Shown here: positions 3,631 through 54,329 of the stretch, piece after piece
How the letters are laid out: the number at the start of each line of letters is the position of its first letter
Position numbering within the stretch: position 1 is the stretch's first letter
From: Bryum argenteum
Taxonomy: Eukaryota; Streptophyta; Bryopsida; Bryales; Bryaceae
Direction: 5' to 3'
Length of the DNA stretch: 64,000 nt
NCBI GenBank assembly: GCA_037043015.1
Contig: CM073323.1
Location: 13,885,758-13,949,757, forward strand
Program-made: the position numbers and the translations under genes
The notes under the pieces: generated by a model
What the model saw: the letters and a program-made list of their open reading frames with translations, nothing else
Database searches by the model: none
What the model was told of the DNA's origin: nothing

Positions 3631-4572
3631 ATTCTTATCATTTTCAATTCCAAATTTATATCAATACCACTGGTAGATTTCAGAGATCCCAATCCAAATG
3701 TTGGATACATCATCATTTAAACAAATATGGGTATACATTAACATTGAAAGTGGTCATAATCTTTGACTACAATCTCACAATGTCGCTTGCAGATGCATCA
3801 CTCTCCATAATTGCCTGACTGATTTTGTACAGTTTATGCTCCACACCCACGTTCTCTGCACATTCTTCAACAACCGCCATCTTCTGACTCATGCTTCCAG
3901 CAAGCATTTATTCGACAGGCCCGGACGTTAACGAATTTAGAAATCGAATGCATGACCGCTATTTTCACAGTTGGTTTGGTATACATGGGTATTCCTTCCA
4001 ATGGGCAACTGCCCTTAGAACTTCTATGTGATTGCAGATTCAACGATTCTTATAGTATACATAATATTATTATTCTACAATTTCGGCATTATTAGAATGT
4101 GCCACTTCTAACGGCGTTCTATACATCAACATCGTTTCCTTCATGATTTACTTTCACCATGTCTCAAAGTGTGCATTACATGGACGAGTTAAGTCACAAA
4201 TGCAGTGGGCAATTGCCAAATGTCTCTGTTATGCTTACCAATGACACTATTCTTAGTACTCGATAATGTAATAATGTGTATAACGATAATCATGATTTCT
4301 CAAGTAAATTACTTCAGAACTCAAAGTGCTCAATAACACGCATCCTACTGTTAGGCTCAAAGTTTGTCATCGCACCTCTGCATATAAAAAGATCTGGGAA
4401 GGCAGTAGGGGTTGGTCGTAAACCGCTCGTGATTCCTCCACTGCTCCCGTCGTACAGAACCTGTCAAGCTTTTATGAGTACACTTACTATTCAATGCCCA
4501 ACTATCCTTCCCGATAATGAATTTAGAAGAATAAGTATGCACAAAATTGGATTTGCATACATGGGTAGTTTA

Positions 4573-4594
4573 CCAGTAGGCAACTGCCTACTGG
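4573..4594. repeat. Variant palindrome with paired changes
   Basis: Arms CCAGTAGGCA and TGCCTACTGG are perfect 10-base complements. Compared with the common form (CCAGTGGGCA and TGCCCACTGG), both arms differ at the same paired position, so pairing is kept. The centre (AC in place of AT) is not self-complementary. Confidence 0.85.
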
Positions 4595-5498
4595 AACTTT
4601 ACTCAGCTTTTCATTACTGCATCCTATACCATTCTCTACACTATACATATTGAACAACCATACTGGCATTTTCAAAAGGGGCCACATGTAACACCTCTAC
4701 ATGCATCAATACAGTTTTCTTCACATAATTTAGGTGCGGTCCCCAAAGATGAATTACTGTCACTTGTTAAGGATCCAGTGGGCAATTGCCCACTTGTCGT
4801 AAGCTCGGTACTAGCATCCTACTTTTACTTCTTCCATACTCGACATTTTTACCCAATCCCAGTAGACTTCTGTAATTCAACATCAGTGATTGCTCGTCAC
4901 TCGTTCTCATTTTTACTCCTATTTTTGTACAAGATTAATTATAACTCAGAGGTTAGTAGTAGAAGCATACCTATTATTAAGAGTTAAAGCAGACAACGCA
5001 CCTCTGGAAATGGTGAGGATGCAGCAGGTCTCACTTCTAATCCGCTCTCCGATATCTTCACATAGCCCGATGTTAACCTACAAAGGCTTGATTATTACGG
5101 TATCAATGTTTTTCTTAAGTACTATACTACAAGATTAAAGAATAACATTACTAATACATCCCAAGTAACTAAAAGTCTATTCAGTCATTTTTCTCTATAC
5201 TAATTCTTAACTAGAATAATTACTTCAATTCTTAACTACAATAATTACTTCAATTCTGTCCTATGTAGTCGTAATTTGATGTTGCGATTTCATCAGTGCT
5301 TCTAACTAATCAGCCTTGTCCAATTGATCAATTGCCTACAATCTAATATGCCCACTGCAGCGCTGTGCTTAGAACTGCAGAACAAGTTTCACTAAAAACA
5401 AATGTAGTATTCAAACGCCTCACGAGTATTTGGCAACTGACATCAAAGATCAGCTATTAAACACTTAACATTTTCACATACTGCTCCAGGAGAAAAAT

Positions 5499-5520
5499 CC
5501 AGTGGGCAATTGCCCACTGG
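5499..5520. repeat. Perfect 22-base palindrome
   Basis: CCAGTGGGCAA followed at once by its reverse complement. Downstream it continues with CACTTC. Confidence 0.9.
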
Positions 5521-5740
5521 CACTTCAAAGATTATACTCATTTAAATCCCTATAATAATGATCATATCTTAAAAAGTGTACTAGTCATGTATTTGAAGAA
5601 ACTGAAGGCGGAAGCTGTTCCGACTTCCGTCTCTAGAGTATTCGTCTAGTCATGTACTTCAAGAAACTAAAGGCGGAAGCTCTTCCGACTCTAGAGTAGT
5701 TGTCTCCTAGATACTTCCGACATTTGACAAACTCATAATA

Positions 5741-6790
5741 CTGAGTTACGACCGGGCAGTTTCAGACTGAACTTCGTGAATTCTCTGCACCACACACTAG
5801 TGCGACCCAATCAATTTAATCTTCATAAACGCCCTTCCCAAAAGTCAATTGCTAACTGGCTCCCTCCTTGACTCAGGCCGACCAATAACCATGATACTAA
5901 GAAACGCTATGGCCTACGAGACTAATCTGCATCATAACTCCATGCTGCAAACTCCTCACTGCTTTTAACTTGTCAAACCTGTTCAATTAATCAATTACCT
6001 AGACAGTGTTTAACATGTGAGTTGTGCTCATATATTAGAAACAAGTTTCTCACTTAAGCGTAGGATTCAAACAACTCTCTTGAGTATTCGAGATGTACCG
6101 TCTGAGGTCAGCTCTTACGCCTCCTTACAAATGAAGACTCTAGTTAATGTCCGTGGGAGACAAATGCCATGGGCAATTGTCCACTGCCACTTAAGAAACA
6201 ACAAACAATGAACATTCGTCTATTAGACAATCAAATATTTATGGCTAGTGGTTGTTTTTACTTGGAGCTACCGACGATGAAATCTATTCCGACTCAAGAG
6301 AATTTGTTTCTTATTTCCTTCACAGACTCTTGACAACCTGATGAATTATATCTAAAACTGCCCGAACTAATTCTGGACTAGTCATTTGCATCACATACAA
6401 GTGCTGCCCGGTCAGTCGATTTTTTCTAAACGCCCTTCCCAGTGGGCAATTGCCCACTGGAAGTATACGAATTTTGCACAAGCTGTACTATACGATGTCG
6501 AATTTAATTTTTTATACCATAATTATATAACCAGAATACAGTGTATAAAAATATTTACATCAAAAGAAATACGAGCTCGTGAAAGACCAACAATGTACGC
6601 TTGAAGAGAAAGCACTCACCGTTGCAATTAGGTCTTTACACATGTAAAAGAACATAAAAGAATACGTTGCCCGCAACTGCCAGGCTTCCACACACCTCTG
6701 ATACGGACCGGCTCATCAGCGGAACCACTACAGGCAACCACAAATCCATTTTTAGACACGAAAACAGCTTTTCCTCGGTCACAAGGAGAA
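5741..6790 (-). repeat. Left copy of a long inverted duplication
   Basis: Two blocks, about 5741-5955 and 6357-6790, match the reverse complement of 22740-23462 nearly base for base apart from small indels. Shared landmarks include CACACACTAGTGCGACCCAA, CTATGGCCTACGAGACTAAT and GAAATACGAGCTCGTGAAAG. About 400 bp in between (5955-6357) is present only in this copy. The block carries palindromes at 5838 (worn), 6166 (worn) and 6439 (perfect). Because the right copy lies 5' of the ParB-like gene, this is probably the 5' region of a paralogue on the minus strand. No ParB-like coding exon follows it; the DUF7869-like gene lies there instead. Confidence 0.75.
6439..6460. repeat. Perfect 22-base palindrome
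   Basis: Lies within the inverted duplication. Its partner on the other arm (23058-23079) has one changed base near the centre. Confidence 0.9.
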
Positions 6791-7816
6791 CAACTACTCA
6801 ATCCAATGAACCTTTTAGTAATCATCATCGAAGGACAATCATAAAACAAATGTACGAGCTTTCAATGGGAGTAGTTCATTACCTTTGCAAACTTGCAAAG
6901 ATCCAACAGATGTACACGCTTGTCTCGAATCCACAAAACAATATACAAGTGGAAAAGCTCCTTGGCATTCACTCCTTTTTGTGTCCTCGAAACCACAACC
7001 ACCATGATAAGATCTCTTTCTTCGTGCAGTTAGTGGACCTTTATAACCTCATGAATACAAGGTGTAACCTTATGTACACGATGTGATGCTTACGACAGCC
7101 TTCTAAGGCGTAGCAAGGTGTCCGTACACCACTCAGCTTCCTTTGATCCTGCATTATGAAAAAGAACAGCTGCACATGAACAACCCGACACTCGACTCAG
7201 CAATGTAGTAATCTTTGCGCATAATGATGAGTAACTAAGTTTAGGGACTCAAACCGTCTCTACAAATGCATTGCAGACAACAGGCCGATAAACAGAAAAA
7301 CTCACGCTGATGATACCAACCAACTAGAAAGCGCACATAACCCTTGATAGCAAAGCTCGATCATAGATGGAAGCAAACAAACCGGGTACAGCATTTACTT
7401 GTAAGTGGTTCACGTGAGCTTCGCTCGGGGAACTCCCTCGTTTCGGACTCTGCTTCTGATCTAGGAGGGCGAGTTCTTTCCAGGTAACAAAAGAAGCATT
7501 GTCGGCAAGGAGCGACACATTCTCAGAAGCGAAAAAGCTAGTTCGACCAGTTTGTCGACCTCCAAGTGCAGTTAGTCGACCTTCATAAACGAGAAACACT
7601 CAGCTGATTCGCCATGGAACCAAGTCTCGCTGGAAGTCGGCAGTCGAGAGCATGAGTTTGGCAATGGGTGCCGACGGTGCAGTTGGAGGACACGCCACGA
7701 GAAACGCTCCTACGCGATTCGCGAGCTCCACATCGTTGATGCTCAACAACGACAGAATGAGGAAGAGTGGTGACAGTGAGTGCAACCACCGCCAATGCGC
7801 CGCCGGCCCACGTCAT
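6628..7816 (-). pseudogene. Possible 5' exons of a minus-strand gene
   Basis: Three GC-richer frames follow one another on the minus strand: 7816-7583 (Met start, Arg/Ser/Cys rich), 7599-7324 (ends in a frame containing FASIYDRALLSRV) and 6849-6628 (contains SADEPVRIRG). A stretch near 6600-6745 is bounded by GCCTGTAG and AACG|GTGAGTG, like a spliced exon, and the right-hand duplicate near 22776-22900 keeps both borders. A possible donor TTACAA|GTAAAT lies in the middle frame. I do not recognise any family. It could be a paralogue's leader and not protein-coding. Confidence 0.25.
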
Positions 7817-7849
7817 CCCAGCTCCTTAATTTCGAAATCGGCTGCGCTT

Positions 7850-9975
7850 TGATTGGAAGTTGGAATTTACGTTTCTATTAATGAAATTACTATGATGTAA
7901 CTTCTCCTCATTAAGAACTACTGTTCGGGAAGTTTTTTAATGAGAATCCATCTACTTTCCCCTTCATGAACTTCTTCGGTAATTCTTTTTGATTCTTCCA
8001 TGGTAATTACGTATTACCCATGTCATACTTTGGTATTATTTAGAATATGAGTCGGAAAAAAACTACACTAAATTTGATAATTAGTGTTAGATTATTATAA
8101 GATTTGAAAATGCTATAAGTTTTTACTTAAAAAAATAATAATTAACATGAGCATTGATTCTGATACTATATAAGGACCCCCATCTCGGCCAATATAGTGG
8201 GTAAAATTATTGAACAACAGTAAAAAATTATAACATGTTTATGTAAATTACTGTATCTAACACTAATTATCAAAGAGTTATAAAATGCGAAATTGGAGAT
8301 ACTTATCTACTTACTATTGAGATTCGGATTTTTTAAACCCTAAACCGTTAAAGAAAATTAAAGACAATGTGCGTTCGCGTTAATTGACATGGGGCCAATA
8401 AACATTCTCCCAAAAACCGTTCTTGCAGTTGGGCACCCTTACATTCGAAATAACTTTAAAAGTGTTCAAAAGCTAGTCTTTGCAATGACATTGCAGAAGA
8501 TGAAGCTGATAATATATTGATTGGTGCAATAAAAATTAATGTAAAAGTTAATGTACTTCCACTGTTCCACATAAGCTTGAAGGTTACTGTGGGTAGATGT
8601 CATATTCTCATCTCAAGAACATGTTTTTGTAGAAGACTTCCTATCCTCTTTATTGTAGGTATGAACCTAATACTTATGATTTTCATGCATTGTTCTGCCG
8701 AAATGTGGTTCTCAAGATTGAGTTCATGTATCAAGCTGCACACAAACAGCTTATAGTTGATTCTTATAGTTTCATATAAATACTTTATCTAGAAAGATGT
8801 CTACTCCACAAAGGTAGAGGAGCCAATTTAAGGAGAATATCCAACAATATTGGACTAATTAAAAAATAGTATCAGTCTCAGCTTCTGGGTAAGAGGCGGG
8901 TGTTTGATATTATTTTCTTGCCATATACAGATATCTATACGTATCGTGCATTTCTTCATGTCTATTTGGTGCTTGTTACCTTAGGGCAAGCTATCATGTA
9001 TCCAGCCGCATACTTAGTGTTACTATAGGTTTTTGAAATAAATCATCTGGTACTTTTGAAGTAAATGTATAAAAAACCACTTAATTGTGTTCAAATTATT
9101 CATTAAATTTGAATTTAAGAAAAGATAATGCGTACCCTTGTCAATGAGCACTATTCCTCTTCGACAGAAATTTAACAAGCAGAGATATCTTCAAACTTTG
9201 AATACTATGGTTGTATAAGAAGGGTTTTAAGCAAATAACATGTCCCTTATCATTTAACATCTATATTTCCTTGTATTTTTAGGAGCTTGAAATCTAAAAA
9301 CTACGACTTTTAGTCTCTATAGACTCTCGGAGGTACATAACAAATATATGTATTTTTTGTAGACTTCCAACCGTAAGATACTGAACCATTCCCAATTTTG
9401 AGGTATTTTTTCCGAAATTGACAGTTAAATGTATTTCATTTTTGATTTCATAACATTCGAAGTTGGAGCAACACTTCCTTCTTTAAGTACAATATGTATC
9501 CATTTATAACAATTTCATCTCATTTACACTAGCCACTTAAATTATAGTCAATTTCTATAGAAAATTATTTAAGTAATAAATGTTGACTAAGAGCATACTA
9601 GAGTCAGAAATTGAATATAGTAGAATTATTTTAAACATTTTCTTCAATAACATATCATTAATTGAAATTTGATTTAAATAGAACTCAGAAATCCTTGGAA
9701 AAGCTATGAACTTTGTAATTTTTACTGTTAAATATATATTAAAATTTATATAATATGAACATTTACTTTCATTGTAGTAAATAAAAAATGTACATTTATG
9801 AAATGCAAGATTATTAAAGAATACTTTATGTAAAACAATACCATTATACATATGTATTGAAGATTTACAGTCCAAATACAAATTCAAATTTATATACAGA
9901 AAACAAAATATTCAACATTGTGCATTTCTCTATACACAAAGAAAAGTAAAAAGAAATAAAATCTAAAAAGAAGCA
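7850..9975. other. AT-rich intergenic DNA
   Basis: No coding signal seen. It holds the CACTA-like MITE at 8066-8275 and one telomere-like AAACCCTAAACC near 8335. The rest is simple AT-rich sequence. Confidence 0.6.
8066..8275. mobile_element. CACTA-like MITE, copy 1
   Basis: Begins CACTAAATTTGATAATTAGT and ends near a worn inverse (TAACACTAATTATCAAA). The interior (TGATACTATATAAGGACCCC...) matches the copy at 54085-54301 in the opposite orientation. Length is about 210 bp, with no coding capacity. Confidence 0.75.
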
Positions 9976-9979
9976 CCAT

Positions 9980-11437
9980 AAAATACTTCTGAGGCTAACC
10001 AATCGCTAGTTAAACGGTCATTGATACCGTCACACGTAGCTTCTCACGAATAGATGATAACCTTGAAAAAAATGTAGACTTCAAACAACGCAATACCCAG
10101 TTGTCCAGGTGGATCAGGTAGTCTTGAACAATGAACTATATCATTCTTTCTTGCACGAAGAATATCTCTCCTATATAAGCAGATTAAAATAGTATCCAAG
10201 AAATTTGGAAAATAAAACCTCGTTTCATTTCCAAAGATCATCTTCTTGACCTACATTCAAAAATATAACTACAATTAAAAACTTAGAAAGAATAAAAACA
10301 AAAAAAAAAAAAATGTATCGTAAAGTTTTAAGAATACTTACCAAATGACTCCCAACCATATAAAAAGCCGTAGTTCGGATCTTCATCGTCGGTATGAGGG
10401 TTACAAGAATAATCCTTCGTAACACTTATTCACGTGTGTAAGGAGATTCACCAACTCTACCAACACCAAATTTGGTAAATTCTCTTTTTCCCAAATCATC
10501 TCCGATTGCTTCCAAGATCATTGGAAATAATGACTTCGAATGGTTGTAGAAGCATAGAAGCTAGCTTATCGCAGATAGTAAATACACAAATCTCTTGCTT
10601 AAATCTGCAAAAACATTTCTTAAGAATAATATTTATATAAAAATAATTATAAAACATTAAATAACAAATAAACAAGAACAAAAAACTGAAAAAAATATAA
10701 AAGTATTATTTGAAATAATATAACTTACCTTCCTATATAGCCAGTGGTTACGAAAAACCATGGCGCATCATTCTTGTGCCACCTTTTATTCCTTCTTTCC
10801 TTGGATCCTTCCTCACAAAGATTACCATTCTTTTCAAGTACAATGCCAAAGAGGTCATCTCCCGCAGACGCCTCTCATTGAATTGTCCATTCACAATCAA
10901 GAAAAACTCATTTGTACCTTTGGATAGGATAGTGGTTGGAGCTGTAAGTTTCTCATAACTTCCCATGGCTGCATGTAAATCGAAGTTCTTCCAAAACTGC
11001 TTGGTATGCTTTCCTCCTTGGTTACCATAAATAACCTTTGGTAATTGAGAACCTCTGTATCTTTGAAGCGATGGAGCGAGGTAAGCATGTTGAGAAACAG
11101 AAAGTGTTTTTGAAACACATGAAGTTCGAGTGTTTGTAATGTGCCGGCAAATTCTCCCTCTAGCAGCACTCCTTGGCGCACTTGAAACTCTTTCTCCCTT
11201 CCATCCAACTCAGACCTTGTTTCAAGAGAAAAGGATAAAACAACTCCAACTTCTCCATGTTCTTGTGAATTCTTCCTCAAAATGATTATCAAGTCCTTGT
11301 CGAAAGAATTGTTTTCTTTGTATGCGGAAATGTAAGAAATCTTCATTTTCTCCTAATATCAAATCTTCACCACTCGGTAAAGTAATATTCTCACGACGCC
11401 GTTTAGACGGTCTCTTTCCACTTCTCTTGCTCGCCAT
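9980..11437 (-). pseudogene. Unrecognised multi-exon gene, probably decayed
   Basis: Coding-like frames run from a Met at 11437 (basic start MASKRSGKRPSKRRRENITL). One continues at 11346-10897 (FSLETRSELDGREKEF) and another at 10966-10748. Downstream on this strand are exon-like pieces: one ending at AG|GTAAGT near 10730, one containing PHTDDEDPNYGFLYGWES that ends at a GTAAGT donor near 10340, and one at 10241-10044 with SRLPDPPGQLG. Codon quality is good but the frame changes between neighbours more than introns alone explain, so small indels are likely. The N-terminus is Lys/Arg rich and could be nuclear. I cannot assign a family. Confidence 0.35.
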
Positions 11438-11639
11438 TCTAAATAAAATAAATAAAAAAACCAATTGGAATCAATAACGGAATTTTAAACTTTTTTACTA
11501 TTATCCAAATTATATAATTAATTTAACAATAAATTTTAATTTTTTCTCCTTAGAAGAGAGATTTTATTAATACTTTTTTAAGTAAAAATAAAATCTATTG
11601 TATACATTAATTAAATAATTATTAAATATTTGAACATTA

Positions 11640-12215
11640 AAAAGAACATTAAAAATCCGAACTGTCAACATTTTTTAAAGACAATCCACCAAATGAATTC
11701 TCACATAAAATGTTCAAATAATATTTTATAATTTTGTCAAAGAACATCAAGAATCCAACTTATCAAGCTTTTGGGAAGATAAGCCACCAACCGAGTTTTC
11801 AATACCATTTTACATTTTACTAAAAATATAATTAAATAAAACATCAACTATCCGAAAAATCAACCCTTTCGAGAAGACCATTCACCAAGTGAGTTCTTAA
11901 ATAAATTAAAAATAATATTTTATAATTTTATCAAAGAACATCAAGAATCCAACTTATCAACCTTTTGGGAAGATAAGCCACCAACCGAGTTCTCAATAAC
12001 ATTTTATATTTTACTAAAAATATAATTAAATAGAACATCAACTATCCGAAAAATCAACCCTTTCGAGAAGACCATTCACCAAGTGAGTTTTTAAGTAAAT
12101 TAAAAATAATATTTTATAATTTTATCAAAGAACATCAAGATTCCAACTTATCAACCTTTTGGGAAGATAAGCCACCAACCGAGTTCTCAATAACATTTTA
12201 TATTTTACTAAAAGT
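11640..12215. repeat. Tandem array, 194-bp dimer of 97-bp units
   Basis: TCAAAGAACATCAAGA recurs at 11737, 11931 and 12125, an exact 194-bp period. Within each unit the two halves are related (CAACTTATCAA...GATAAGCCACCAACCGAG and ...GAAGACCATTCACCAAGTGAG), so the base unit is about 97 bp. A more diverged half-unit starts near 11640. It lies directly upstream of the cluster of captured gene fragments. Confidence 0.85.
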
Positions 12216-12388
12216 ATAAGTATAAGTATAAGTAAAACACAATTGTTTAGCTGGTGTACATCTCTCCATCAACATGTACCTCTTTTCAAAGAAAATATGT
12301 TCGATCATTGATCTCTGATGGTAAAAACTATGTTGTCCCTAAAAGTTAACGATCAGGAGAGGGAAATGTAGTGTAACGGAATAGGCAC

Positions 12389-12726
12389 CTGGCTGTGACC
12401 GGTTCCCAGAAACGATGCAATGCTGGCGAAGACGTCGGGAGCTCCGTTTCCAAGAGGGAGGAGGGAGACGCCAGCCACAGTAGGCGGGAGGCGGAGCAAA
12501 ACAGACAGCTTCTCCAGGGAGCAACAGAAGTAATCAGCGACCGTGTTGCCCAGCATCTAGAAGAGCATCAAAAGCCACACGAAGAAGAGCACATACGCCA
12601 CCCCGGGTGACTTGGAAAACGTGCAGTAATAGGCCCTGATGTATTCAATCACAGTCCCGGAGTGGCACTCCGTGTTGGCTCGCACGTAGCTGCATTCATC
12701 GGGAAATCCCGTATGCTGCCGCACGT
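12389..12726 (-). pseudogene. Isolated exon of a cation/calcium exchanger (CCX type)
   Basis: The exon is bounded by TTGCACAG|AC and CAGCCAG|GTGCCT; its length fits entry in phase 1 and exit in phase 0. It encodes a Cys-containing lumenal segment (ECSYVRANTECHSG), a hydrophobic helix, then GNTVADYFC and the alpha-1 repeat core [20 protein letters not shown]. This is the ion-binding signature of NCX/CCX antiporters, which exchange Ca2+ or other cations across membranes. A TAG at 12559-12557 interrupts the frame between the first helix and the alpha-1 region, where homologues have an ordinary residue. I saw no other exons of this gene, in particular no alpha-2 repeat. This is a fragment, probably a captured copy. 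Confidence 0.8.
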
Positions 12727-12729
12727 CTG

Positions 12730-13385
12730 TGCAAGGCCTTGAGAATTCGAAACATGATAACTTGAGCATGCAATCATCTATGAAGGAAAGATCAACTAGC
12801 CATAGCTCTACTTAAGAAATCGAAATTGTTTCCAAGTCACGGAAGGCAAAGAGCTTACCATGCTTGCGACGGTCTTCGTGAAAACTCGACACTGCATGCA
12901 AGATTCAGCAAAGGTTCCTTAATCGAGGTGCAAAAGACTTCTGCCCTGCACAAAGTTAACCGCACAAAGTTAACCGTTATTTACGACGGAATACTTTGGG
13001 AAGATAGAAACAAGCGGAACGCGCCACAACACATATTACTTGCACACGTTATTACACAATGTTAAACACAATGTTACGCACAGCGCCCCGATAACACGAA
13101 CTCCTTGCATAGTTAGGATATCTATAAAATAGTCATGTGCCATTGCGCAGACAGACGGTTAGTTTTTGGTGGCTGATTGAGTCATCAGAAAGTTTGTACG
13201 TTACGTAGGTGTAAGGATGAGTGAGATCAATCTGATAGGAAAAAGTAAGATTCAGAAACTCACAAAAAGAATCGAGCCAGCACAGAAACTCGATGCAAAA
13301 TCCGAGCGTACGTACGAAGAATAGAACAATCTGTCACTAGCATTTGTCAGTTACAGACATTAAGCTGGACAGAACTCGAAATAGA
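12730..13385. other. Spacer between captured fragments
   Basis: No coding region recognised. It includes a short duplicated CACAAAGTTAACCG near 12955. It is probably intron or flank carried with the captured exons. Confidence 0.4.
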
Positions 13386-13389
13386 GTAC

Positions 13390-13586
13390 CTTGTTCAAGA
13401 TGATACGATCTGCATATGCAATCTGCTCCACTGCTTCATTTACTACACCATCTGGCTTAACTTCCTCTATGTGCTGTGTTGCGTGCTTTGCATTGACTAG
13501 TGTCACAACTCCATCTAGACGCAAGTTGTGTGCTAGGTGCTCCTCAAGGTAAAACGTCTGGATGATTGGAGCAGGATTTGCAAGAC
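13390..13586 (-). pseudogene. Isolated exon of a CobW-domain (ZNG1/CBWD-type) metallochaperone
   Basis: The exon is bounded by TGTGCAG|GT and AACAAG|GTACTC. It is 197 nt, entering in phase 1 and leaving in phase 0, with an unbroken frame. It encodes LANPAPIIQTF, then RLDGVVTLVNAKHATQH, EVKPDGVVNEAVEQIAYADR and IILNK. This is the CobW GTPase region after Walker B, ending in the NK of the base-recognition motif NKxD. CobW proteins hydrolyse GTP to hand zinc or other metals to clients. I found no flanking CobW exons (no CxCC or P-loop), so this is probably one captured exon. Family assignment is firm; function at this locus is doubtful. Confidence 0.8.
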
Positions 13587-13589
13587 CTG

Positions 13590-14070
13590 CACATGCTCAA
13601 TTTTCATTTGCGGGTCCCAAGTTCCTTCGAGTCAAGGACTAACGTCGCCTCTAGCGTCGCCTCGTACTCACAATGAAATTAGGAAGTGCCAAGATGTATA
13701 ACCACCTAGCAAGGGCTGCTGATATATGTGAAGTGTAGATAAGAATTGATTGCAGCCACAAGATGACGTTCAGCCTGCATACCTGATCGAGTGGCACTGG
13801 AGCTGTTTCCGAAGTAGCCACGAGCCTCTTGGAGCAGATTCTGCATTTGTACTAAGTTAATGAATGAATGCTATTGAGGGGACCAGAGCCTCCTTGTCAC
13901 ATGCTCATCAACAAGACTATCCCGTACTCGCAAGCGCCGAAGTAAACTTTCCTGCTCCAAACTAGAACAGATGAAACATACTTTTCGTCTACTGTATGGC
14001 TCCAAGACTGTTGTGAGCCCAAAAATGCACTCGCACACAAACCACGCTCTCTGCAGAAACAAACCAGCTC
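13590..14070. other. Spacer with no recognised gene
   Basis: A 63-residue minus-strand frame (14062-13871) is open but matches nothing I know. It could be intronic DNA carried with the CobW exon. Confidence 0.35.
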
Positions 14071-14075
14071 TCTAG

Positions 14076-15251: not shown

Positions 15252-15427
15252 GAAACTACCGAGGCCAGTGCAGCAAACACCGAGAGCAGAGCCACGAGCC
15301 ACGAGAGCAGGAAGAAACGACACACAAGAACTAAAAGGAAACTAAAAGATGATTTTTTGAAGAGATACTCTTCTTGTTATATACACCTACAAAGAAGAAA
15401 TTTTCAACTCAATAAGAGAGTTGATGA

Positions 15428-15920: not shown

Positions 15921-16195
15921 AGGATTAGAATTTAGAGTCGCTTAAATAATCAAAGAACATAAGTAAAATGAATTAGAGTTTTTAGAAGTTTTTTATAAAA
16001 CATTTACTCAAAATTTGCAAAGTTAAGCAAATCTATGTTAATGAGTCATTTAGATGGCTCACAACTGTCCCTCGAGGAACTATCGCGACTTTGAATACAA
16101 CGATACATGACAGCTAAAAGATCGCCAGGAAACTGACCTTCTCGAGCGCGTCGCTGGATTGGTAATGCAGGACGGAGTCATTTGTTTACCAACAA

Positions 16196-16588: not shown

Positions 16589-16599
16589 GGAAATTTATT

Positions 16600-19500: not shown

Positions 19501-21020
19501 TACATGAGGCATCTCGGATTTGTCAAACATTCATAGTAACAATTGCTATTAATAGCGTTGTGTTTTCTTATCTCGTCTTGTAAATTTTGCGGTACCTTGT
19601 TTTTTCTCCATAAGCTTCTCTCATGCACTTTAAGATTGTATTCTTTACTTATCTTTTATGTTCTTCATTACTTGCTTTTAAGTTTATTTTGATTTACTTT
19701 GTGTTTACAGGATTTTACTTACATAATATCTTCATTATGGATCAGTACTCAAATTCCCAACTAATCCATGTCGAAACTTTTCAATCTTATAAAGGCAACA
19801 TTCAATTTCTACATAAACAAGCTACAATGTTTAATGTGATTTTACATTTTCTTTCTTGTAAAATTCAATAATTGATAGTTTGTAATTTTAGAAAATAATT
19901 TTGTAAAAAAAGAGAAGAATTATAGAGTACGTACTCACAATCCATTATTAGTCCAACTCAAAGACAATGAACGTGATACTTGTTTTACCATATTGTTGTT
20001 TTTATACCTTTTTATAACAAATAAGTCGATGAATGTTCAAAAGGCCAAATGATTTTACAAAACTTTGAATGTGCATGCTCAAATTAGTTATCTACATGGA
20101 CAAAGAGATGAACAAAGTATTTAGGATAACAATCATCAACTCTCCCTTTTCACAAAGTTGACTATGTATGCCAAATTTGGTAGAAAGATATTTTGCATTA
20201 AGTCCTGAAGGCCAACCTATTTGGATTTTTACTACTTTGGGCACCTCATTGGAACAACTGAATTATGGTATTTGGGTTGCAATGTGGTGTGTGTGTGCGA
20301 AACATAGAATCTATCCGTGGTAAAATTTGCGACGCCAAATTCTACTTCTAGATTTTAGCAGGGCTAATTATGGCTACGATATTAGGTGGATTGGTAAGAG
20401 AACGGGTACCCGTCTTCCTTAGTTGCCACTTTATTTTGTTAATTTCATATATGTATTAACATTACAAAATTTGTAAAACGTGAGATTTTGAAAGTTATAA
20501 ATTATTTTATACAACTGATTCGTATATAGGCACAAATCCACAAATCACTTTCTAAGATAAAAAAGTCACTGATAGTGATTTAGGGTAGCGAATACGTACG
20601 AGGATGCAAGAAGAGAGTAGTATTGTTCCAATATCCCCTTGTCCGTTGGGCATCTAGTCATTAGTATTACAAATGGACACTTTATTCACACCGACCCTTT
20701 ATGGGCACAAAGTTTTATTATTATTAAGTTCAGACAACTCTCAAGTAGCCCCCTTCTTTTGACAAGTCTTAGATTATATCTTTATGATTTCAAATTACGT
20801 TTTTTAGAGTGCACATGAGCCCTAATGTACTAAATTTTCAATGAAGATTTTCTATTTATATTTGTGACAACTTCTCAAAGTTTTGCATATGATATATTTT
20901 TATCAAGTACACACTTGGGATTTAACTTTTGTTCACTTTCATAGGAATTTGTTATAAGATGTTATTTGAATTTCATTAATTTTAAAGTTTCAACCATTCA
21001 ATCTCTTACTAGAATAGTAA
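16600..21020. other. AT-rich intergenic DNA with old interspersed repeats
   Basis: No coding region seen. Scattered segments resemble parts of the 45-51 kb region: a piece near 18470-18560 with TTAGATTTGCAATGATGTTT, a piece with ACAACAAGTCTATTA near 18976 (compare 50111), and repeated CTTTAGGGGTTAAG phrases (compare 45293). These point to an old, worn repeat family. A short telomere-like GGGTTTAGGGTTTAG is at about 17538. Confidence 0.5.
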
Positions 21021-21035
21021 GATACCGTCACAGGC

Positions 21036-21152
21036 GGGCGTGGGCGACGGGTATCATGCGGGCGTGGGCGAGGGTATCACCTGGGCGTGTGCGACGGGTA
21101 TCAACTGGGCCTGTGCGCGGGTATCTCCTGGGCGTGGGCGCGGGTATCACCT
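21036..21152. repeat. 23-24-bp GC-rich minisatellite
   Basis: About five copies of GGGCGTGGGCGACGGGTATCA-like units, each ending in a variant of TATCACCT. It is much richer in GC than its surroundings and sits just upstream of a probable transcription start region. Confidence 0.8.
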
Positions 21153-21154
21153 GG

Positions 21155-21216
21155 CCCAACGAGTTTTGGCGGCGCATTTTCTCTCTCCCTCCCGGTTCTA
21201 GGGTTTCGTCGTGAAG
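21155..21216 (+). promoter_or_regulatory. Probable 5' leader start of the ParB-like locus
   Basis: A pyrimidine-rich TTTTCTCTCTCCCTCCC is followed by TTCTAGGGTTTCGTC near 21194-21207. CT-rich initiators and CTAGGGTTT (telo-box-like) motifs are common in plant 5' leaders. The link to the coding exon 3 kb downstream is inferred from strand and order only. Confidence 0.35.
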
Positions 21217-21520
21217 TTTGCGCTGCGCTTGTTGGTCGGATTTCTGCGATTGCTTGAGGGGTTTTGCCGTGTCGCTTGCTTTGCGGAGTTCTGCGATTGC
21301 TGCAGGGGTTTCATCGTGTCGCTTGCTTTGCGGAGTTCTGCGATTGCTGCAGGGGTTTGGCCGTGTCGCTGGCTTTGCAGAGTTCTGCGATTGCTGCTGG
21401 GTTTGGCCGTGGCGCTCGCTGGTCGGGGTTCTCCGATTACTGCTGAGGTTTGGCCGACGCGCTTGCCGTCGGGGTTCTGCGGTTGCTGCTAGGTTTGGCC
21501 GCGGCACTTGCTTTTCGCTT
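21217..21520. repeat. 46-48-bp minisatellite
   Basis: Six or so units built on GAGTTCTGCGATTGCTGCAG and GGTTTGGCCGTGTCGCTTGC. The first units are most alike; later units are more diverged. It is open in several frames on both strands, which is a by-product of high GC and not good evidence of coding. Confidence 0.8.
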
Positions 21521-21539
21521 CTTGCTGGGTTTCGAAGTT

Positions 21540-22735
21540 GGAGGTGCTGGTAACGTGAATCACGAACTGGTATGTGGCCGCCCCCCATCGTCGTTGCATG
21601 AGTTTCGAATTTCATTGCCGACTTCCTCGTATGACTTCATGAGCACCATCTACTAGCAATCTGAAGAATGGTGTATTGCGTCCATAGGCTAGCTAGCGTA
21701 CGTTTTGCTGAGTGTGGAGATCGGGTTCTGACACCAGTTTGCAGTTCAAAACTCTTGTCCATATTCCAGAACTTCGACTTTAGAGATAGAGTGGAATCTT
21801 GTTTACTCACTGCAGTCACATGCAGGTCGACTTCGATGATGTGTAATCTCGATTTCGTTGACTTAGTTGTCTGACATTCTCACATGGAATGATTATGGTT
21901 CTGGCATCTCAGTCATTTAACCTTCTTTCACTTTCCTTCCACTTGACTGTGCCAAATTTTGTAGTAAAGGATGGATTGAATATAATGCAGATTGTGAGCA
22001 TTACAATTGTGAAGATGTCTACAAGGCAGTGAATTCTTACTTTTGAATGAGGCTCAGTGACTTTTAGACTTCTTACAGTTGTATGTCACAAACATGAAGG
22101 TCAACAACGTATCACTATTGCACTTTCGTCATGAAGATAGTAAGTTTAGACATTTCGTCATGAAGATAGTAAGTTTGGACATAGTCGTATTATGATCTAC
22201 AGTTTGTGAAGCATGAGTGAGCTAGAGGTGTCCGTTTCAAATACTGATTGAGAAGCCTGTATGTTGCCACTGGATAATTGCAGCACTTGCTTCGCGTCAT
22301 TTGCGCACGATCTGCACCCAGTTAAGTTGATCAATCTACGTTGTATCCATCAGAAAGTAATTCTCGATCATCGACCTACGAAGCCCCACCGACAGATTTC
22401 GGCCCTCTGCTTTAGTCTCAGGTGACCACAATTTCAGGCTCAGAGTACTTGTCGTCTGAGTACCTAAGGTACTATTCTCTTGCACCCTCCTGTGTTTTGG
22501 TGTAATTTGTGAGAGGAATAGTAAGACTGGCTGGTTAGGATCAAGAAGAAACATGTGAGGGCATTTCGGAACTCTGTGTTTCCAGTCCAATGGACAGTTT
22601 GGACACCACTACTGTGTACTGCTTTTTATCTACCAATGGACATTTCAGTCGAACATGTTGTTCATCGGTAAGCACCAGATCGTGTACTTTAGGCTACATG
22701 TGTTGGTGTATTCTTAGTCCATTGACTCCACCACA
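21540..22735 (+). other. Putative 5' transcribed region, no coding seen
   Basis: No convincing reading frame. A short direct duplication (TTTCGTCATGAAGATAGTAAG) lies near 22125-22175. The stretch is probably leader or intron of the ParB-like locus, given the spliced-looking block at 22776-22900 and the acceptor at 24303. Confidence 0.35.
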
Positions 22736-22739
22736 TCTT

Positions 22740-23462
22740 GTTTTCGTGTCTGAAAATAGATCATTGCTTGCCTGCAGTGGTTTCGTGACTTAAGCCGGTC
22801 CGTATCAGCGGTGTGTTGAAGCCTATGTTGAAGCCTGCCAGTTGCAGGCGACGTATTCTTTTATCTTCTTTTACATGTGTGAAGACGTAATTGCAACGGT
22901 GAGTGCTTTTTCTTGAAGCGTACATTGTTGGTCTTTCACGAGCTCGTATTTCTTTTGATGTAAATATTTTTATACACTGTATTCTAAATAGATAATTATG
23001 GTATAAAAAATTAAATTTGACGTCATATAGTACAACTTGTACAAAATTCGTACACTTCCAGTGGGCAATTGACCACTGGGAAGGGCGTTTAGAAAAAATT
23101 GACTGACCGGGCAGCACTTGTATGTGATGCATATGACTAATCCAGAATTAGTTCGGGCAATGAGGAATTTGCAGCACGAAGGAGTTCTGGTGCAGATTAG
23201 TCTCGTAGGCCATAGCGTTTCTTAGTATCATGGTTATTGGTCGGCCTGACTCAGGGAGGGAGCCAGTTAGCAATTTAGTCATTGAGTACTCGGAAGGGCG
23301 TTTACGAAGATGAGGGTGATTGGGTCGCACTAGTGTGTGGAGGGAGCCAGTTAGCAATTGACTACTGAGAAGGGCGTTTAGGAAGACTAAAGTGATTGGG
23401 TCGCACTAGTGTGTGGTGCAGAGAATTCAAGTTCAGTCTGAAACTGCATCCCGTGTGCAATT
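22740..23462 (+). repeat. Right copy of the long inverted duplication
   Basis: Reverse-complement match to 5741-6790. It contains an exon-like stretch, CCTGCAG|TGG (about 22776) to AACG|GTGAGTG (about 22901), whose borders are kept in the left copy although the reading frame is not. Part of it is further duplicated here: CACACTAGTGCGACCCAATC... occurs twice around 23330-23410. Palindromes lie at 23058, 23272 (worn), 23347 (worn) and 23450. Confidence 0.75.
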
Positions 23463-24135
23463 GCCCACTGAAGCTTGTTAGTGACATTGTTAGACTGACA
23501 CTGTGACTTTCAGCATTTCTTTTCTGTTGAATACGTACCGTTCTGTAGATGTTGACACTTCCAACTTTTCATGTGCAGAAATCTAGCAACATCAAATAGG
23601 ACTTTTACCAGCAGAACTTGGATCTCTGTTTCGCGGACATCTTCAACAACTCTGTCAGTTGTAAGTTTTTACAATATAAGCTCCTAATTCCCAAGTTTGT
23701 AGAATGTTTTATCTTAATGCCGTAAGTAGCATTTTAGAAACTGGACAGGTCCTAACTTTACTGGTCCTAACTTCCTGTTAGGGAAGTAGATTAATTAACA
23801 GTCAGGAATTAACTTTTTGTTACAGGAGATAGTACAAGAAAATGCACCCAGTGGGCAATTGCTGACTGGAACTTGCGACATTGTTAGTGTATTTTACGTG
23901 CGAAAATTCCTTCACTGGAATGAAATTTCCATTAGACCAGTGGGCAATCGCCCACTGGTCCTAACTTGTTAGTGAAGTAGATAAATGAACAGCTGGGAAT
24001 TAACTTTTTGTTAGAAAAGTACTAGATAGTACGTCAAGAAACTGATCCCAGTGGGCGATTGCCCACTGGAACTTGCGACATTTAGTGGTACTTAATGTGC
24101 GAATATTCCTATACTGGAATGAAAATTCCATCAGA

Positions 24136-24157
24136 CCAGTGGGCAATTGCCCACTGG
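24136..24157. repeat. Perfect 22-base palindrome
   Basis: Flanks GA and TC extend the perfect complementarity by two bases on each side, giving a 26-base palindrome. Confidence 0.9.
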
Positions 24158-24240
24158 TCATAACTTCTTGTTGGGAAGTAGATTAATTAACAGCTGGAAA
24201 TTAACTTGTTGTTAGAGGTAGATAGGACAAGAAATTGCAC

Positions 24241-24262
24241 CCAGTGGGCAATTGCCCACTGG
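24241..24262. repeat. Perfect 22-base palindrome
   Basis: The copy closest to the start codon, 45 bp upstream of it, in the presumed 5' intron. Confidence 0.9.
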
Positions 24263-24307
24263 AACTTGCGACATTGTTAGTGACTTCAAGCATCTCTGTA
24301 ACAGGGG

Positions 24308-27300
24308 ATGAAGAAGCGAAAGGAGACGGAGAGGGTGCCTGACATTCCATACACAGGTGCCTTGAAGAAGTTGTTCGATGTAGTTAGAGATGTGAATGTC
24401 CGTGGAGACTGCAATGTGGGCAAGAAGTACCAACTGAAGCAGGCTTTAGCCACTCCTCGGCAATGGTCGATGGAGCTGCAGAAGATGCCCAAGGACAGTG
24501 GGTACTGTCTACGAGTTGTGGTGAACAGCATGCTGCCTCCCAGTACTGAAGTGGCGTATACGACAATGGCGTCCGTTACTGTGACGGATGTAAAAGTGCA
24601 TGGCGACAACCTCATTGTATGGCTGGTCAATGCATCTGGTAGCGTTGCCAACCTCTATTTCTTCCAGGAAGACAGGTTTGAGCCGCGGCCACTTTTAGAC
24701 AGCCTTTTAGTCCACGGCGAGGGAATATCCGAGTTTCACCGCGGTCCTATTCTACCCCAGGACGAAACGCGGGCTTTGAATCAGTCAGCATTACAGAGGA
24801 AGAAGACACTAGAAGCATTGCTGAGAAGAATTGCTGAAATCAACAAGGCGGTAATCCTGAAAGCCACTGCTGAAGTCACACCTCGAAGTCGAAAAAGGCC
24901 CTCCGCACCACCGATTGCTTGTCCTCCAGCAAGCAGCCGCGAGAAAAAGGGCAAACAAAAGAGAATAGATGAGGAACAAGAAGCAGAGGCGGAACCTAGC
25001 ATTGTCGTTGTCGACAGCCAAGTTGTGGGCAGCGGTCTAAAAGGAGAAGAAGTGGCGATGGAGGATGATGAAGACGAAGTCCGTGAAGATACGACCAAGC
25101 CTCTTAGTGCTGAAGGTGATAATACGCCCGGTGGTCAATTGCCCATTGAGAATAGTGAGGAAGAGGAGGTAGAGGAGGTCGTCTCAACTAAACATTCCAA
25201 AGGCCATAAGAAAGCAACTCCGAAAACCAAAAGGAAGTGGACCGGACCAAGCGTCATGAAGAAGTCCGAGAAGCTGGTTCGGGAAGAAAGCGATTCATCA
25301 GCGGAGGTACAAGAGGAAACTAAACCGAAGAAGCCGAAGAGGAAGACAAAGAAGAATCCAAAGAAACACCCCACGAAAGTACCCGAAGGCAAGGAGATAG
25401 ACGTGAAAACTTTTCAGGAGGAGCTGATTGTGTTCATGGACCGAGTCAAGCCCATGTACATTTGGGGACAATCTTTCACGGCCAACGTGGACGTGAAACG
25501 TATGAGACTCGCACCGAAGGAAATGAAGTACCGCCCATTTCACAGCACTCTGGTAGACAGCTTGTTCCAAGTCTTCTTGACGTCTGTACACCCACGGAAG
25601 CAGACACTTACACTCATGCCCATTTGTGATGAGGAACCGGAAACGTACGAAGATGCTTTGAATCTGCCGTTTTATATCATTAATGGGCAGCATTCGTGGG
25701 CAGCGGCGTCCAGACTATTGGCAAGTAAGGACGTCGATTCAACTGTGAAGGACATATACAGAACCTGGACATGCGATTTTGTATGGACGGATGACAACCT
25801 CTTATTGTCAGAGCTTTCAAGAAGGGTGAACAACACAAATCTCTTCCACTGGGACTCCCCAGAGTACCTCCTCCACATTCAGTACGCGCGGGACCTATGG
25901 GTGCACTACGGTAACCCAATTTCCGATGGCAAATCCAAGTCAAACTGGAAGGTATGTCATCTATCATTTTCTTGTTCGTTATTGGATTGATGTTTGCAAT
26001 CCAGTGGGCAGTTGCCCACTGGCTAAGGTGTATATCAACGTTAATAATTGAGGATCATCTTCGTTGCTATTGCTTGTGTAGGAGTTCCAATTGAAAGCAG
26101 TGGAGACTTTAAACGCAATGACAGTGAGGAATGCGAACAAGACTGCAAAAGAGTATCCGGGCGAGTTTCGAGTTATTTGTGCGCCTGATGTGCTGCACAA
26201 TCAGATTATGGATGCCTTCCATTGGTACGAAAGTGGCGATCTTATTAATCCGGACACGGGGAACAAATGGAAGGAAGATGTCAAGCCATGGGAACGCAAA
26301 CACACCGTCGCGTACACGTTCAAGTGTATCCGTGGTATGGGAACGTATAGTTTGACCGAGCTCGTAGCACGAATAACACAGGGCCTTGAGATTAACGGTG
26401 AGCAGACGCCAACGCCGGAAAATGAAGAAGTAGTTCTTCCGCCCAAAGTATACATTGGGTCCAACAGACCTAAGAACAAATTTTGCTACAGTCTGAAGGA
26501 GTGGACTGACAGAAAGAAGCAAAAGAACGCCGTGATTGGCTGGATAAACAAGTACTACCCGGCTATGCTTTGGATAGATGATGACGTAAATCCGGAGGCG
26601 TGGCAACGCTTCAAGACGGAGATAGGTTTCAACTCCGCCCACATGGATGAGTTAATCCGGAGGGGTACTAAGCTCTACCTGGCGAAGTTCATGAAAGCCA
26701 GTGACAACCCGAGGCGCGAGCAAGAGAGCCCTCCGCTTGGGTTTTTAGCGGAGATCAGTCGTGTTCTGAAAAAGAAACCCGTTCTCCGACCCGACTTTGC
26801 ACCCCTGTATGGCGTATTGGAGAAAACTCGGAATTTCACGAAGTTCTCAAAGGTTATCCATGTGGAAAACCAAGACATATGGGGTAAAGTACCTCAGGAA
26901 GATTGGCAAACCGAATTGTCATCGAACATCGCGGGTGGCATTTTAGACTTCCGTCCCATCGACGAATTCCTGGAAGAGGAGGATTTCGAGTTTGATGCTA
27001 TGAGTGGGCGCAGTTACAAATCCATCTTGGACGTGCTACTGAAGCCAGCAGATTGGTTACATCCCCCGTTACACTGGTTGGTGATCTCGCACTGTAATAA
27101 ATCAAAGGAAGTGCAACGCGCGTTGACAGCGTATTTTCCGAATTATACAGTGCAAGAATCTCAGTACATAGCGGCAACGGCGGAGAAATATTTTTTCTTG
27201 AACAGCACGATCAAGAAGGGAAATGGGGTTGTTGTCCTCATCTATTCGAAGAACGATTGCCAACCCTTGGCTTGGAAAGAAGTTCTCCGTAGTGAAGAGA

Positions 27301-28186
27301 AGTTCAAGAAGATTGGCTCTGTGCGAGAGTACCCATCTCACGAGGATGAGCTGCGCATGGAGGTCTACCTAGACTTCATTGAGCAGCTTCAGCGAACTCT
27401 TGAAGATGACAGCCCCCCTGTGAAGCTTATCTGCATTGCTGCGGGTCGAAAGGCGATGATCGCTGCAGTGGTGAGGGCTGCACACATTTTTTATTTCAGT
27501 TTGTAGATCCACTAGGCAATTGTCCACTGTCAGAGAGTTTTGACATATATCGGTTTGCAATTGCGAGTCCTATTTGTATTATTATGGTTCGAACAGTTGT
27601 AAATTCCAGGAAGCTATGGCCCAGTGGCAGGGTTTCCTACACTAACCGGTTTTTTGTTTTGGGCAGATGAATGGTTTGAAACCTATAGCTGTCGCTCTAC
27701 AGGGAGATTCGCTTGATATGTTAGCCTTCAGTTACAAGTTTGGATGTAACTTAACAGGGTTTGCGCACCTTTTCCACCCCGGAAAATCAACTGCCGATGT
27801 CTCAGATCATCATGGCCTGAGTTGGAAATCCAAAGGTACAGAATTTAATCCCGAGAACTCGGATGAGAGTGCCTCAGCTGGTTGCCAAGAAGACATCACG
27901 ACAAATTTCGATGCTGGTACTTTGGCTAGGGAGGACGCCGAAGCTGCAGAAGGCGAATGTGCAGATGTTGAAGTGCACCAAACATTCGAGGATATATGTT
28001 CAGACTCTGGTAGAATTTCCCACTTCATATTTCGATTTCTACAATTATGCTCTTTTGCTGCTTTAAGTTTAAGTTCTTCTGCTTACCTAAGTATACTCAC
28101 TCATTCGTGTATGTAAAGGCGAAGATGAGGACGATGCGGATGAAGGTGAGGACAGCAAAGACTGCCGAGTATTCACCTGCGACTAA
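24308..28186 (+). CDS. ParB-like domain protein with possible degenerate methyltransferase segment
   Basis: Four exons join in one frame of about 1147 codons: 24308-25951, 26082-27470, 27667-28009 and 28119-28186. All borders are GT..AG with matching phase. An acceptor AACAG|GGG lies just before the ATG. Residues 190-360 are Lys-, Arg- and acid-rich and hold likely nuclear signals (KPKKPKRKTKK). Residues about 393-475 run in ParB order: Arg-Pro, a helix, a strand with LTLMP, then FYIINGQHSWAAASRLL, matching the (D/N)G(Q/E/H)HR-type signature of the ParB/sulfiredoxin fold, with Ser in place of Arg. Near residues 995-1032 the phrases VKLICIAAG, KAMIAAV, NGLKPIAVALQGD recall motif I of N6/N4 methyltransferases, without the catalytic residues; that link is weak. 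No helix-turn-helix was recognised. The first two introns each hold a palindrome, as does the coding sequence (residues 275-281). The frame is intact and probably expressed. It could belong to a domesticated or active mobile element. Confidence 0.6.
25128..25149. repeat. Palindrome relic within coding sequence
   Basis: CCGGTGGTCAATTGCCCATT keeps the CAATTG centre and most of the right arm. It is read in frame as GGQLPIE within the acidic linker, so the family can enter or arise in exons without breaking them. Confidence 0.6.
26001..26022. repeat. Palindrome in intron 1 of the ParB-like gene
   Basis: The arms are complete; the centre is CAGTTG in place of CAATTG, a single change. It sits inside a 130-bp intron, well away from both splice sites. 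Confidence 0.9.
27509..27530. repeat. Palindrome in intron 2 of the ParB-like gene
   Basis: CCACTAGGCAATTGTCCACT: the centre is perfect and the arms are worn. It is placed early in a 196-bp intron. Confidence 0.75.
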
Positions 28187-30078
28187 AGTGACTTCGGTCT
28201 TCGAAGGAGATCTCGCATATCCGGAGAGGTTTGCAGCATTGCTCGAGAGTTCGAAGAATATCCTGCCAGACATTGAGGATGGCCATAGGACGGCTACGGA
28301 GATGGCAGCGGCGGAAAGGTCCTCTCTGATGATGGGACGCATTCGTGGCTCAGGTGATTTTCTTCTTATTTTTTCTCCCAAATGCGCCTCGATGCCAAAG
28401 ACGAGCGCAATGAGAACTTTGGCGTAGCGGTTTGCTCTTGTGATGATGGATATAATCATGGAGACCCGGTAACTGAAAGTCGGGATTTTGTAGGTTCCGA
28501 TTATCAGACTGCATCTCAGGAAGGTCCTGTTCGTCAGTGACGGTCTCCGGATGGCTCTGAACCGCTAATTGGTGGGGTCCCAGTCGCAGCGACGACGTCA
28601 TTTGATATCCCAGTGGTCCCAACGCCGGCATGTGAGACTTCAACGGATGGAACTCCGTCTTTTGGCTTTCCAAGGCTTCAACCTATTGAAGGGAGCTTGG
28701 TTGACCCAGTCGATCAATCGCTTGCTGAAGTCACCTCTGCCGTTCCTACAGCCGATGACGTTGCTGCCGTTCCTACGCCCACCGATGATCCTTCGCCCGA
28801 TGGCGGCGTGACCATTTGAACACGTCGGGCGCTGGGCACACCCAAATTTGGCAAAGTGGTCAATTGCCCAGTGGCAGAGAACGCAGGATCGCAGGGAGAA
28901 GACCATCGTATTCTGGAGACCCAAATCTCCATTCCACAAGGTTTTCAGGCTCCTATCGAACAAGATGTCGTTCCTTCGCCCACCGATGATCCTTTGCCCA
29001 GTGGCAGCAGCCATTTGAACACGTCGGGCGCTGAAGGGCACCCAAATTTGGCAGTGGTCAATTGCCCACTGGCAGAGAATGCAGGATCGCAGGGTGAAGA
29101 CCATCGTATTCCGGAGACCCAGCTCTCCATTCCACAAGGTTTTCAGGCTCCTATCGAACAAGATTGTGCCATTGTCCAGTTGGCTGTACCTGTTGACGCC
29201 GTGAAGCAAAGACCATTACCTGCACTACGGGGCACGGGCAGTAAAGGAGGAGATTTCTGGCTCGAAACCTTCGAATATTGAGAATCCCATCTTAATCGAT
29301 AGTGACGAGGATGATCTTCATTATAAGAAGACAGTTGTGGAATATCCCACACCGATCTTGAGTTGTCGAAGGTGTCTTTGCGATGATCTGATATCGATCG
29401 GCATGATAAGAAGTTGTCGCAGATAAAGCTTTGAGGATTCAACGAGGGCAATTAGCAAGAAGAAGCTCGCCGTAATGAGCTAACCGCCCGAAAAGCCGTG
29501 AGCTTGAGATGCGAACAGAAAAACCGATGCGGGAGCTTGAGTTGAAATGAAGGAGCTCGAGGAAGCGGAGAAAACTATCAGGAGTGCTGGGTTGAGTCAC
29601 GTCATCAGTAGGGGAGAGTATACTGACACCCCGTCTACTCCACTTCCGGGCCAAGCCACCACCTCCATTGCATCGGCACCAGAGTTGTCGGGGTCCGAGG
29701 TATGCCCACCGAGAATTCGACCAGCTGCAGAAGAGGTTATTCCATGTACCCAGGTGCGTTCAGTTTTTACATGTAAAATTTTCTTTATATCCTCATTGTA
29801 GCAATGTAACTTAGAAAACAACTGTGGAATGACAGGAATCCATACTACGGGGACGAGATGACTCACTGAATGCAGAGAATGTCCCTGAGGTTAGTTCCAT
29901 TACCATATCCCTCATTTACTCGCCTTAACCACACGTTCTCATTGTTCTGAGTCATGTTGCCCACATTAAATGAAAGGGTGGGGTCTGCCTACAGAGAAAT
30001 TGAAAAACTTCAACTCGATGCGTCTTATGAAGCTGCGGACAGGCCTCAGCACTATGAAGACTGCGTATACCCATAGCC
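28187..30078 (+). pseudogene. Coding-like 3' region in shifting frames
   Basis: After the simplest stop at 28186 coding quality continues. One frame from about 28128 to a donor GGCTCAG|GTGATT near 28351 reads VFEGDLAYPERFAALLESSK. Next come GVAVCSCDDGYNHGDP near 28425-28470 and a Pro/Thr/Asp-rich frame to 28819. Then come duplicated segments (28856-29281), a charged helical frame containing KELEEAEKTIRSAG that runs to CCCAG|GTGCG at about 29754, a small exon at about 29836-29889 (ESILRGRDDSLNAENVPE), and a last piece ending at a stop near 30077. Either the gene has more exons and alternative splicing, or this tail has collected small indels. Transcript data would decide. I do not recognise a domain. 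Confidence 0.35.
28761..29170 (+). repeat. ~205-bp tandem duplication containing palindromes
   Basis: Two consecutive copies share CCCACCGATGATCCTT, TTTGAACACGTCGGGCGCTG, CCCAAATTTGGCA, a palindrome relic (28853 and 29051), GAAGACCATCGTATTC and TTTTCAGGCTCCTATCGAAC. The second copy's palindrome is better kept on its right arm. One copy is out of frame with the other in places. Confidence 0.85.
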
Positions 30079-54301: not shown

Positions 54302-54329
54302 TAGTGAGGGGACTCTGCCCTTACTGTAC

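Follow-up and report, generated by a model that had tools for sequence, protein, structure and literature searches.

Three described systems stand closest to the case considered here. In Arabidopsis, the VANC motifs form tandem repeats in the introns and upstream regions of VANDAL21 (PMC5735166). CACTA elements such as En/Spm and Tgmt* carry clustered motifs for which a DNA-binding protein encoded by the element is the known or suggested binder, and the subterminal repeats of Tgmt* can form two palindromes at the left border and 12 at the right border (PMC2613891). In the organelle DNA of Volvox, short palindromes are found in intergenic DNA and in introns (PMC2670323). Here we describe a 22-base palindrome, CCAGTGGGCAATTGCCCACTGG, that recurs within one locus of a 64,000-nucleotide stretch of Bryum argenteum DNA (GenBank assembly GCA_037043015.1, contig CM073323.1, positions 13,885,758 to 13,949,757 of the forward strand; hereafter the window, in whose coordinates all positions are given).

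Like VANDAL/VANC, the Bryum locus combines a short and dense motif, a location in introns and upstream regions, a multi-copy gene system and spread through tandem repeats (PMC5735166, PMC10398659); clustering of the motif in tandem repeats of non-coding regions is found here too. However, the VANC21 motif is nine bases long, arrayed in one orientation and not palindromic, whereas the Bryum 22-mer is a palindrome. The CACTA motifs lie near the element ends, beside the terminal repeats, while the copies of the 22-mer are mostly intronic. The Volvox palindromes fill organellar non-coding DNA, measure 14-79 nucleotides in the plastid and were judged inert where they occur in the nucleus; in contrast, the present case involves a single 22-mer, a single locus and introns of the spliceosomal type. 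Among the matches listed in the open-licence literature, which were sought under moss nuclear introns and short or 22-bp palindromic elements, there was no description of this family; strings of the palindrome sequence occurred there just as half-site strings, titles on moss nuclear-intron palindromes dealt mostly with organelle genomes, and nothing was found on DUF7869, a domain present at the locus, or on a perfect palindrome with subterminal sites.

The palindrome was searched with up to eight mismatches on one strand, which is enough for a sequence of this symmetry, and chance was gauged across the window from 100 dinucleotide shuffles (up to three mismatches), 10 window shuffles (up to eight) and 1000 shuffled palindromes. 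At three mismatches or fewer, 13 matches were found in the window and none in the 100 shuffles; the comparison with shuffled palindromes of equal composition, which the initial annotation had suggested, also gave no match for any of the 1000. Raising the limit to six mismatches yielded 22 places, every one inside 3998-29072, as against an average of 0.1 place in the window shuffles (n = 10). The initial annotation had counted about 22 copies, and 21 of its 22 listed places are among these. Its remaining place, 23272, is out of register with the 22-mer and represents a degraded partner of the copies at 5838 and 23347, with a half-site at 23263; our own additional place, 27606 (six mismatches), is probably a chance match. 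Four copies are perfect (5499, 6439, 24136 and 24241) and five carry a single mismatch, much as had been reported. Neither 6461-23057 nor the DNA beyond 29072 contains a place with six or fewer mismatches, and in all some 55 kb of the window are free of matches at this level; beyond 29072 the best places have at least eight mismatches, which is the shuffle level (4.9 per shuffle at eight), and the earlier remark that none occurs between 30 and 64 kb holds. Among palindromic words of 12-16 bases with at least two G/C letters, that of the 22-mer is the only one to recur in the window; among 10-base words of this kind there is one other, CCAAATTTGG, with four occurrences, of which a single tandem pair accounts for two.

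Half-sites behave differently from the whole palindrome. At two mismatches or fewer there are 47, of which 36 fall at the listed palindrome places. The 11 others are distributed as one in 3661-6620, one in 22740-24307, two in 24308-30100, one in 6621-22739, none in 1-3660 and six beyond 30.1 kb; four thus lie in palindrome-bearing regions, two of these (23263 and 28994) within modules that carry copies. With counts of one or two per region, lone half-sites show no plain enrichment in the palindrome-bearing regions, and plain clustering holds only for the whole palindrome. The family is real, unusually dense and, as far as the window shows, bound to one locus. Exact copies of CCAGTGGGCAATTGCCCACTGG are absent from the viral contigs of IMG/VR and the bacterial and archaeal genomes of GTDB, collections that hold no plants; when the four central bases were left free, one IMG/VR match appeared, which by our estimate is about what chance would give in a collection of that size.

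The locus comprises two genes with a leader in common: a frame-broken DUF7869 gene on the minus strand and, on the plus strand, a gene of 1147 codons without a recognised family. Their splice sites, and hence the introns, were read by eye from the sequence. The parts are as follows.

209-3660, minus strand: left gene with a DUF7869 domain (PF25273, E 6.2e-15), apparently broken over several reading frames.
3998-6460, minus strand: eight palindrome copies (3998, 4202, 4573, 4775, 5499, 5838, 6166 and 6439) within old tandem modules, in what is likely the left gene's leader intron.
6620-6766, minus strand: the left gene's leader exon, which is homologous to its right-hand counterpart; GTGAGT donor at 6619; the outer limit is that of strong homology.
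22739-22898, plus strand: leader exon of the right gene; GTGAGT donor at 22899; the outer limit is that of strong homology.
23058-23471, plus strand: part of leader intron 1 (22899-23578) with copies 23058, 23347 and 23450 and, near 23263-23272, the degraded partner.
23579-23660, plus strand: likely second leader exon, with acceptor TGTGCAG and donor GTAAGT.
23760-24282, plus strand: five copies (23848, 23937, 24048, 24136 and 24241) in a tandem array of about 199-bp units within leader intron 2.
24308-28186, plus strand: right gene, with four coding exons (24308-25951, 26082-27470, 27667-28009 and 28119-28186).
25128-25149, plus strand: worn copy (four mismatches) in coding exon 1 of the right gene.
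26001-26022, plus strand: copy with one mismatch in the 130-nucleotide coding intron 25952-26081 of the right gene.
27509-27530, plus strand: worn copy (four mismatches) in the coding intron 27471-27666 of the right gene.
28765-29164, plus strand: 198-bp tandem pair that carries copies 28853 and 29051 and lies 3' of the right gene's stop.

The frame of the right gene stays open across the exon joins, up to a stop after codon 1147, and its introns are of the GT-AG type. Eighteen of the 21 copies fall in likely introns of the two genes, the eight of the left gene sitting between its leader donor and its coding part; one lies in a coding exon and two lie downstream of the right gene's stop. The initial annotation had seen a scatter over introns, leader, exon and intergenic DNA; the placement is less varied than it implied.

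The leader has been duplicated in inverted orientation, 5756-6766 corresponding to 22739-23447 overall. Self-comparison resolves this into 6359-6766 versus 22739-23159 (89%), 5790-5962 versus 23157-23340 (86%) and 5756-5867 versus 23339-23447 (92%); upstream of that the similarity fades, and the coding parts of the two genes show none. An inverted duplicate of the locus, as first proposed, is thus confirmed for the leader and not for the coding parts. When the two leaders were compared at higher sensitivity, both mutually and internally, and also against the right gene, old tandem modules came to light on the left: 6294-5932 versus 5625-5269 (62%), 4790-4512 versus 4217-3926 (62%) and 6460-6259 versus 5859-5655 (64%). 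On the right, 23440-23493 resembles 24231-24280 (80%, 54 columns), and the region of the intron copy, 25975-26051, resembles 23907-23988 (70% over 83 columns, palindromes included). Taken together with an all-against-all comparison of the 120-base outward flanks, these comparisons give a flank partner for 19 of the 21 copies and none for 25128 and 27509, which leaves nine flank groups, namely seven duplicated modules and these two single copies. Short weak matches cross the group borders (6439 with 4573, 72% over 64 columns; with 24136, 84% over 37; with 26001, 83% over 35), so that the nine groups may descend from fewer modules. The word itself is shared even by groups between which flank similarity is no longer clear.

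These results revise two earlier statements. It had been said that most flanks differ between copies; since 19 of 21 have a partner at higher sensitivity, this is for most copies an effect of old divergence, and only between the nine groups do flanks differ, short weak matches apart. The claim that many copies are not just passengers of a bigger repeat likewise gives way to seven duplicated modules, and the palindrome family is partly a by-product of their duplication. The observation that opened this work is confirmed; the interpretation attached to it is supported in part.

We tentatively prefer to read the copies as dyad sites that a dimeric protein would bind, arrayed through tandem duplication and serving in the way that target arrays serve proteins encoded by transposons. 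What is observed is the array itself, confined to one locus of the window and spread in modules, and the open frame of the right gene. The palindrome would be a recognition site at the DNA level, two 11-bp half-sites back to back, suited to a symmetric dimeric DNA-binding protein. Sites would have built up in the leader introns and in two coding introns through repeated tandem duplication of larger modules, and one leader would also have been copied in inverted orientation, so as now to head two divergent genes. The likeliest use would be self-directed control: the clustered sites would be bound by a protein belonging to the locus or its family, which would keep that family active or handle the family's DNA, in the manner of VANC at the intron and upstream arrays of VANDAL and of TNPA at Spm; the family may be of mobile origin. 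We lean towards this reading because 13 full palindromes stand against none by chance, because only the whole palindrome is plainly clustered, because 18 of 21 copies lie in likely introns, because the oldest module pairs have kept the word better than expected (see below), because the word persists in groups without clearly matching flanks, and because the VANC motif offers a precedent (PMC5735166). One could go further and envision that a plant gene family with no Pfam match holds, in leader and coding introns, perfect dyad sites of 22 bp to which its own product binds, a new self-targeting system of anti-silencing or self-handling that is convergent with VANC and uses a different protein and a palindromic site; this stronger version we consider unlikely.

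Nearly as likely as the dyad-site array is that the palindrome belonged to an ancestral repeat unit, was multiplied along with it in large introns through tandem and segmental duplication, and is now decaying without a function. The flank partners of 19 copies and the short matches that link groups further are what such passengers would leave behind; most younger pairs keep the palindrome no better than its flank (for example, 20 of 22 positions versus 93%, 19 of 22 versus 89%), and in old pairs an intact copy often stands beside a worn one (0 and 5 mismatches, 0 and 6). It is harder to reconcile with passengers that nine flank groups still share the word though their flanks no longer clearly match, that two lone copies (25128 and 27509) have no detected flank partner, and that the five oldest module pairs together show 27 changes from the consensus where flank divergence predicts 39.8 (pooled one-sided P about 0.02; single pairs 0.13, 0.30, 0.83, 0.16 and 0.02). 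In three of these five pairs the palindrome is within the top 1-5% most alike windows. The old left-hand pairs each comprise a better and a more worn copy (mismatches 0/5, 1/4, 0/6 and 3/6), an asymmetry that would fit if some copies were under selection or had been corrected from a template; tests on single old pairs gave P values from 0.03 to 0.51. Mismatches are rare at columns 9-14 of the palindrome (5 of 126 cells versus 48 of 336 elsewhere; P 0.0016 with copies treated as independent), and remain so after collapse to nine groups (1 of 54 versus 25 of 144, with majority words and ties broken by order). Several points count against the dyad-site array. Over 12 pair alignments the surplus of the palindrome is modest, 227 of 259 positions identical (88%) versus 1617 of 1986 in the flanks (81%). 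Two of the five oldest pairs show no surplus (0.49 and 0.31 of windows at least as alike), and the seven other pairs mostly show none (0.06-0.76). The consensus taken as ancestor comes from the same copies that were tested, which weakens the conservation figures, and the conservation of the core is partly due to its having fewer C/G positions, as C or G positions carry 42 of the 53 mismatches. For a plant factor, a perfect palindrome of 22 bp with no spacer would be a long site. No transposon ends were found in the self-comparison or between the outer flanks. Finally, the searches brought no binding protein to light: apart from DUF2251 below threshold, no family was matched by pieces of the product of the right gene, and structure models of two of its exon pieces were unusable (mean predicted local distance difference test scores, pLDDT, of 32.7 and 30.2).

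Two further explanations would make the 22-mer either an insert or an RNA element. As a minimal transposon, it would consist of two abutting terminal repeats copied into the locus; the halves of the word can indeed be taken for a pair of adjoining inverted terminal repeats, the word is found in nine flank contexts, and the window holds hairpin repeats resembling miniature inverted-repeat transposable elements (MITEs). Yet perfect flanking duplications (lengths 2-10, four offsets) were at no setting present in as many as two of the 21 copies, and we accordingly set aside a minimal transposon or MITE with target-site duplications. With the family found at only one locus of the window and module duplication explaining most copies, insertion appears improbable. 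More improbable still is that each transcribed copy forms a hairpin, a 9-bp stem with an AAUU-type loop, acting in intron splicing or processing. The 22-mer does fold into a stable single hairpin (-17.7 kcal/mol, two 22-mers folded), the copies are biased to introns, three cells have changed on both sides of a pair, and pairing exceeds that of slid controls, though a palindromic consensus gives the latter by itself. Across the 18 distinct copies, however, every measure equals its shuffled value (pairing 80.2% versus 80.3%, double changes 3 versus 2.3, covariation 0.108 versus 0.112), so that pair counting lends the hairpin no support; the loop is no freer to vary than the stem, Rfam gave no match at gathering score in 1-31000, and two copies are situated past the stop of the right gene. 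Covariation at the shuffled level, a loop no freer than the stem, the half-site counts and the Rfam result speak less for an RNA element than for a whole-dyad site at the DNA level or for the absence of any function.

Should a protein of the same family target these sites, they would represent another origin of sequence-specific self-targeting in plant repeats, with an as yet undescribed DNA-binding protein and a 22-bp site, and would help to find out how selfish genes of plants evade silencing. Should they be passengers, they would illustrate how old tandem repeats in introns can mimic a regulatory array.

Searches of Pfam, NCBIfam, PHROGs, PADLOC and PDB with pieces of the right gene's product yielded nothing but the sub-threshold match to DUF2251 (Pfam), and IMG/VR and phage records contained no relatives of such pieces. 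DUF1985 and DUF287, the VANC protein domains named in PMC5735166, have no Pfam match in the right gene's exon open reading frames (ORFs) or in three spliced pieces. A ParB-like reading of the stretch INGQHSWAA was rejected, as it finds no backing in Pfam, NCBIfam, PHROGs or PDB. No CACTA-type transposase domain appeared in the 17 of 54 ORFs of at least 110 amino acids that were scanned with Pfam, the left gene giving DUF7869. CACTA terminal inverted repeats or a target-site duplication were recognised neither at the leader boundary nor between the outer flanks; the left end may lie outside the window. The leader boundary itself was considered as a terminal repeat and dismissed, its reverse complement occurring at 12 other places (one or two mismatches of 11).

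A hairpin MITE-like insert sits between the ORFs of the left gene. It belongs to a pair of hairpins of about 140 bp, at 2329-2475 and 31309-31448, each nearly its own reverse complement and 96% alike; a short piece near 3674-3739 is related to them (72%). They were considered as the ends of one 29-kb element and rejected, each being self-contained and only about 15 further bases being shared. Between the two palindrome blocks lie fragments that, by eye, we take to resemble a plant cation/calcium exchanger (12380-12760, minus strand) and a trihelix factor (14076-14750, plus strand). Together with the spliceosomal-type introns, a retrotransposon piece matching PF25597, presumably of the copia type, and a short telomere-like repeat at 57614-57652, they make the window eukaryotic and plant-like. 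Tandem arrays occur at 11636-12219 (194-bp units), 21237-21514 (47-bp units) and 16232-16512 (42/84-bp units, the 84-bp unit being free of mismatches over 16232-16510). Two ORFs, 60122-60670 and 60950-61432, have sub-threshold matches to the Replitron HUH and C-terminal domains (PF21859, PF21860). A MITE-like inverted pair at 8062-8274 and 54092-54305 is 91% identical, its second copy being partly self-inverted (71%), and another inverted pair of about 620 bp, at 37554-38176 and 44425-45044, is 97.8% identical.

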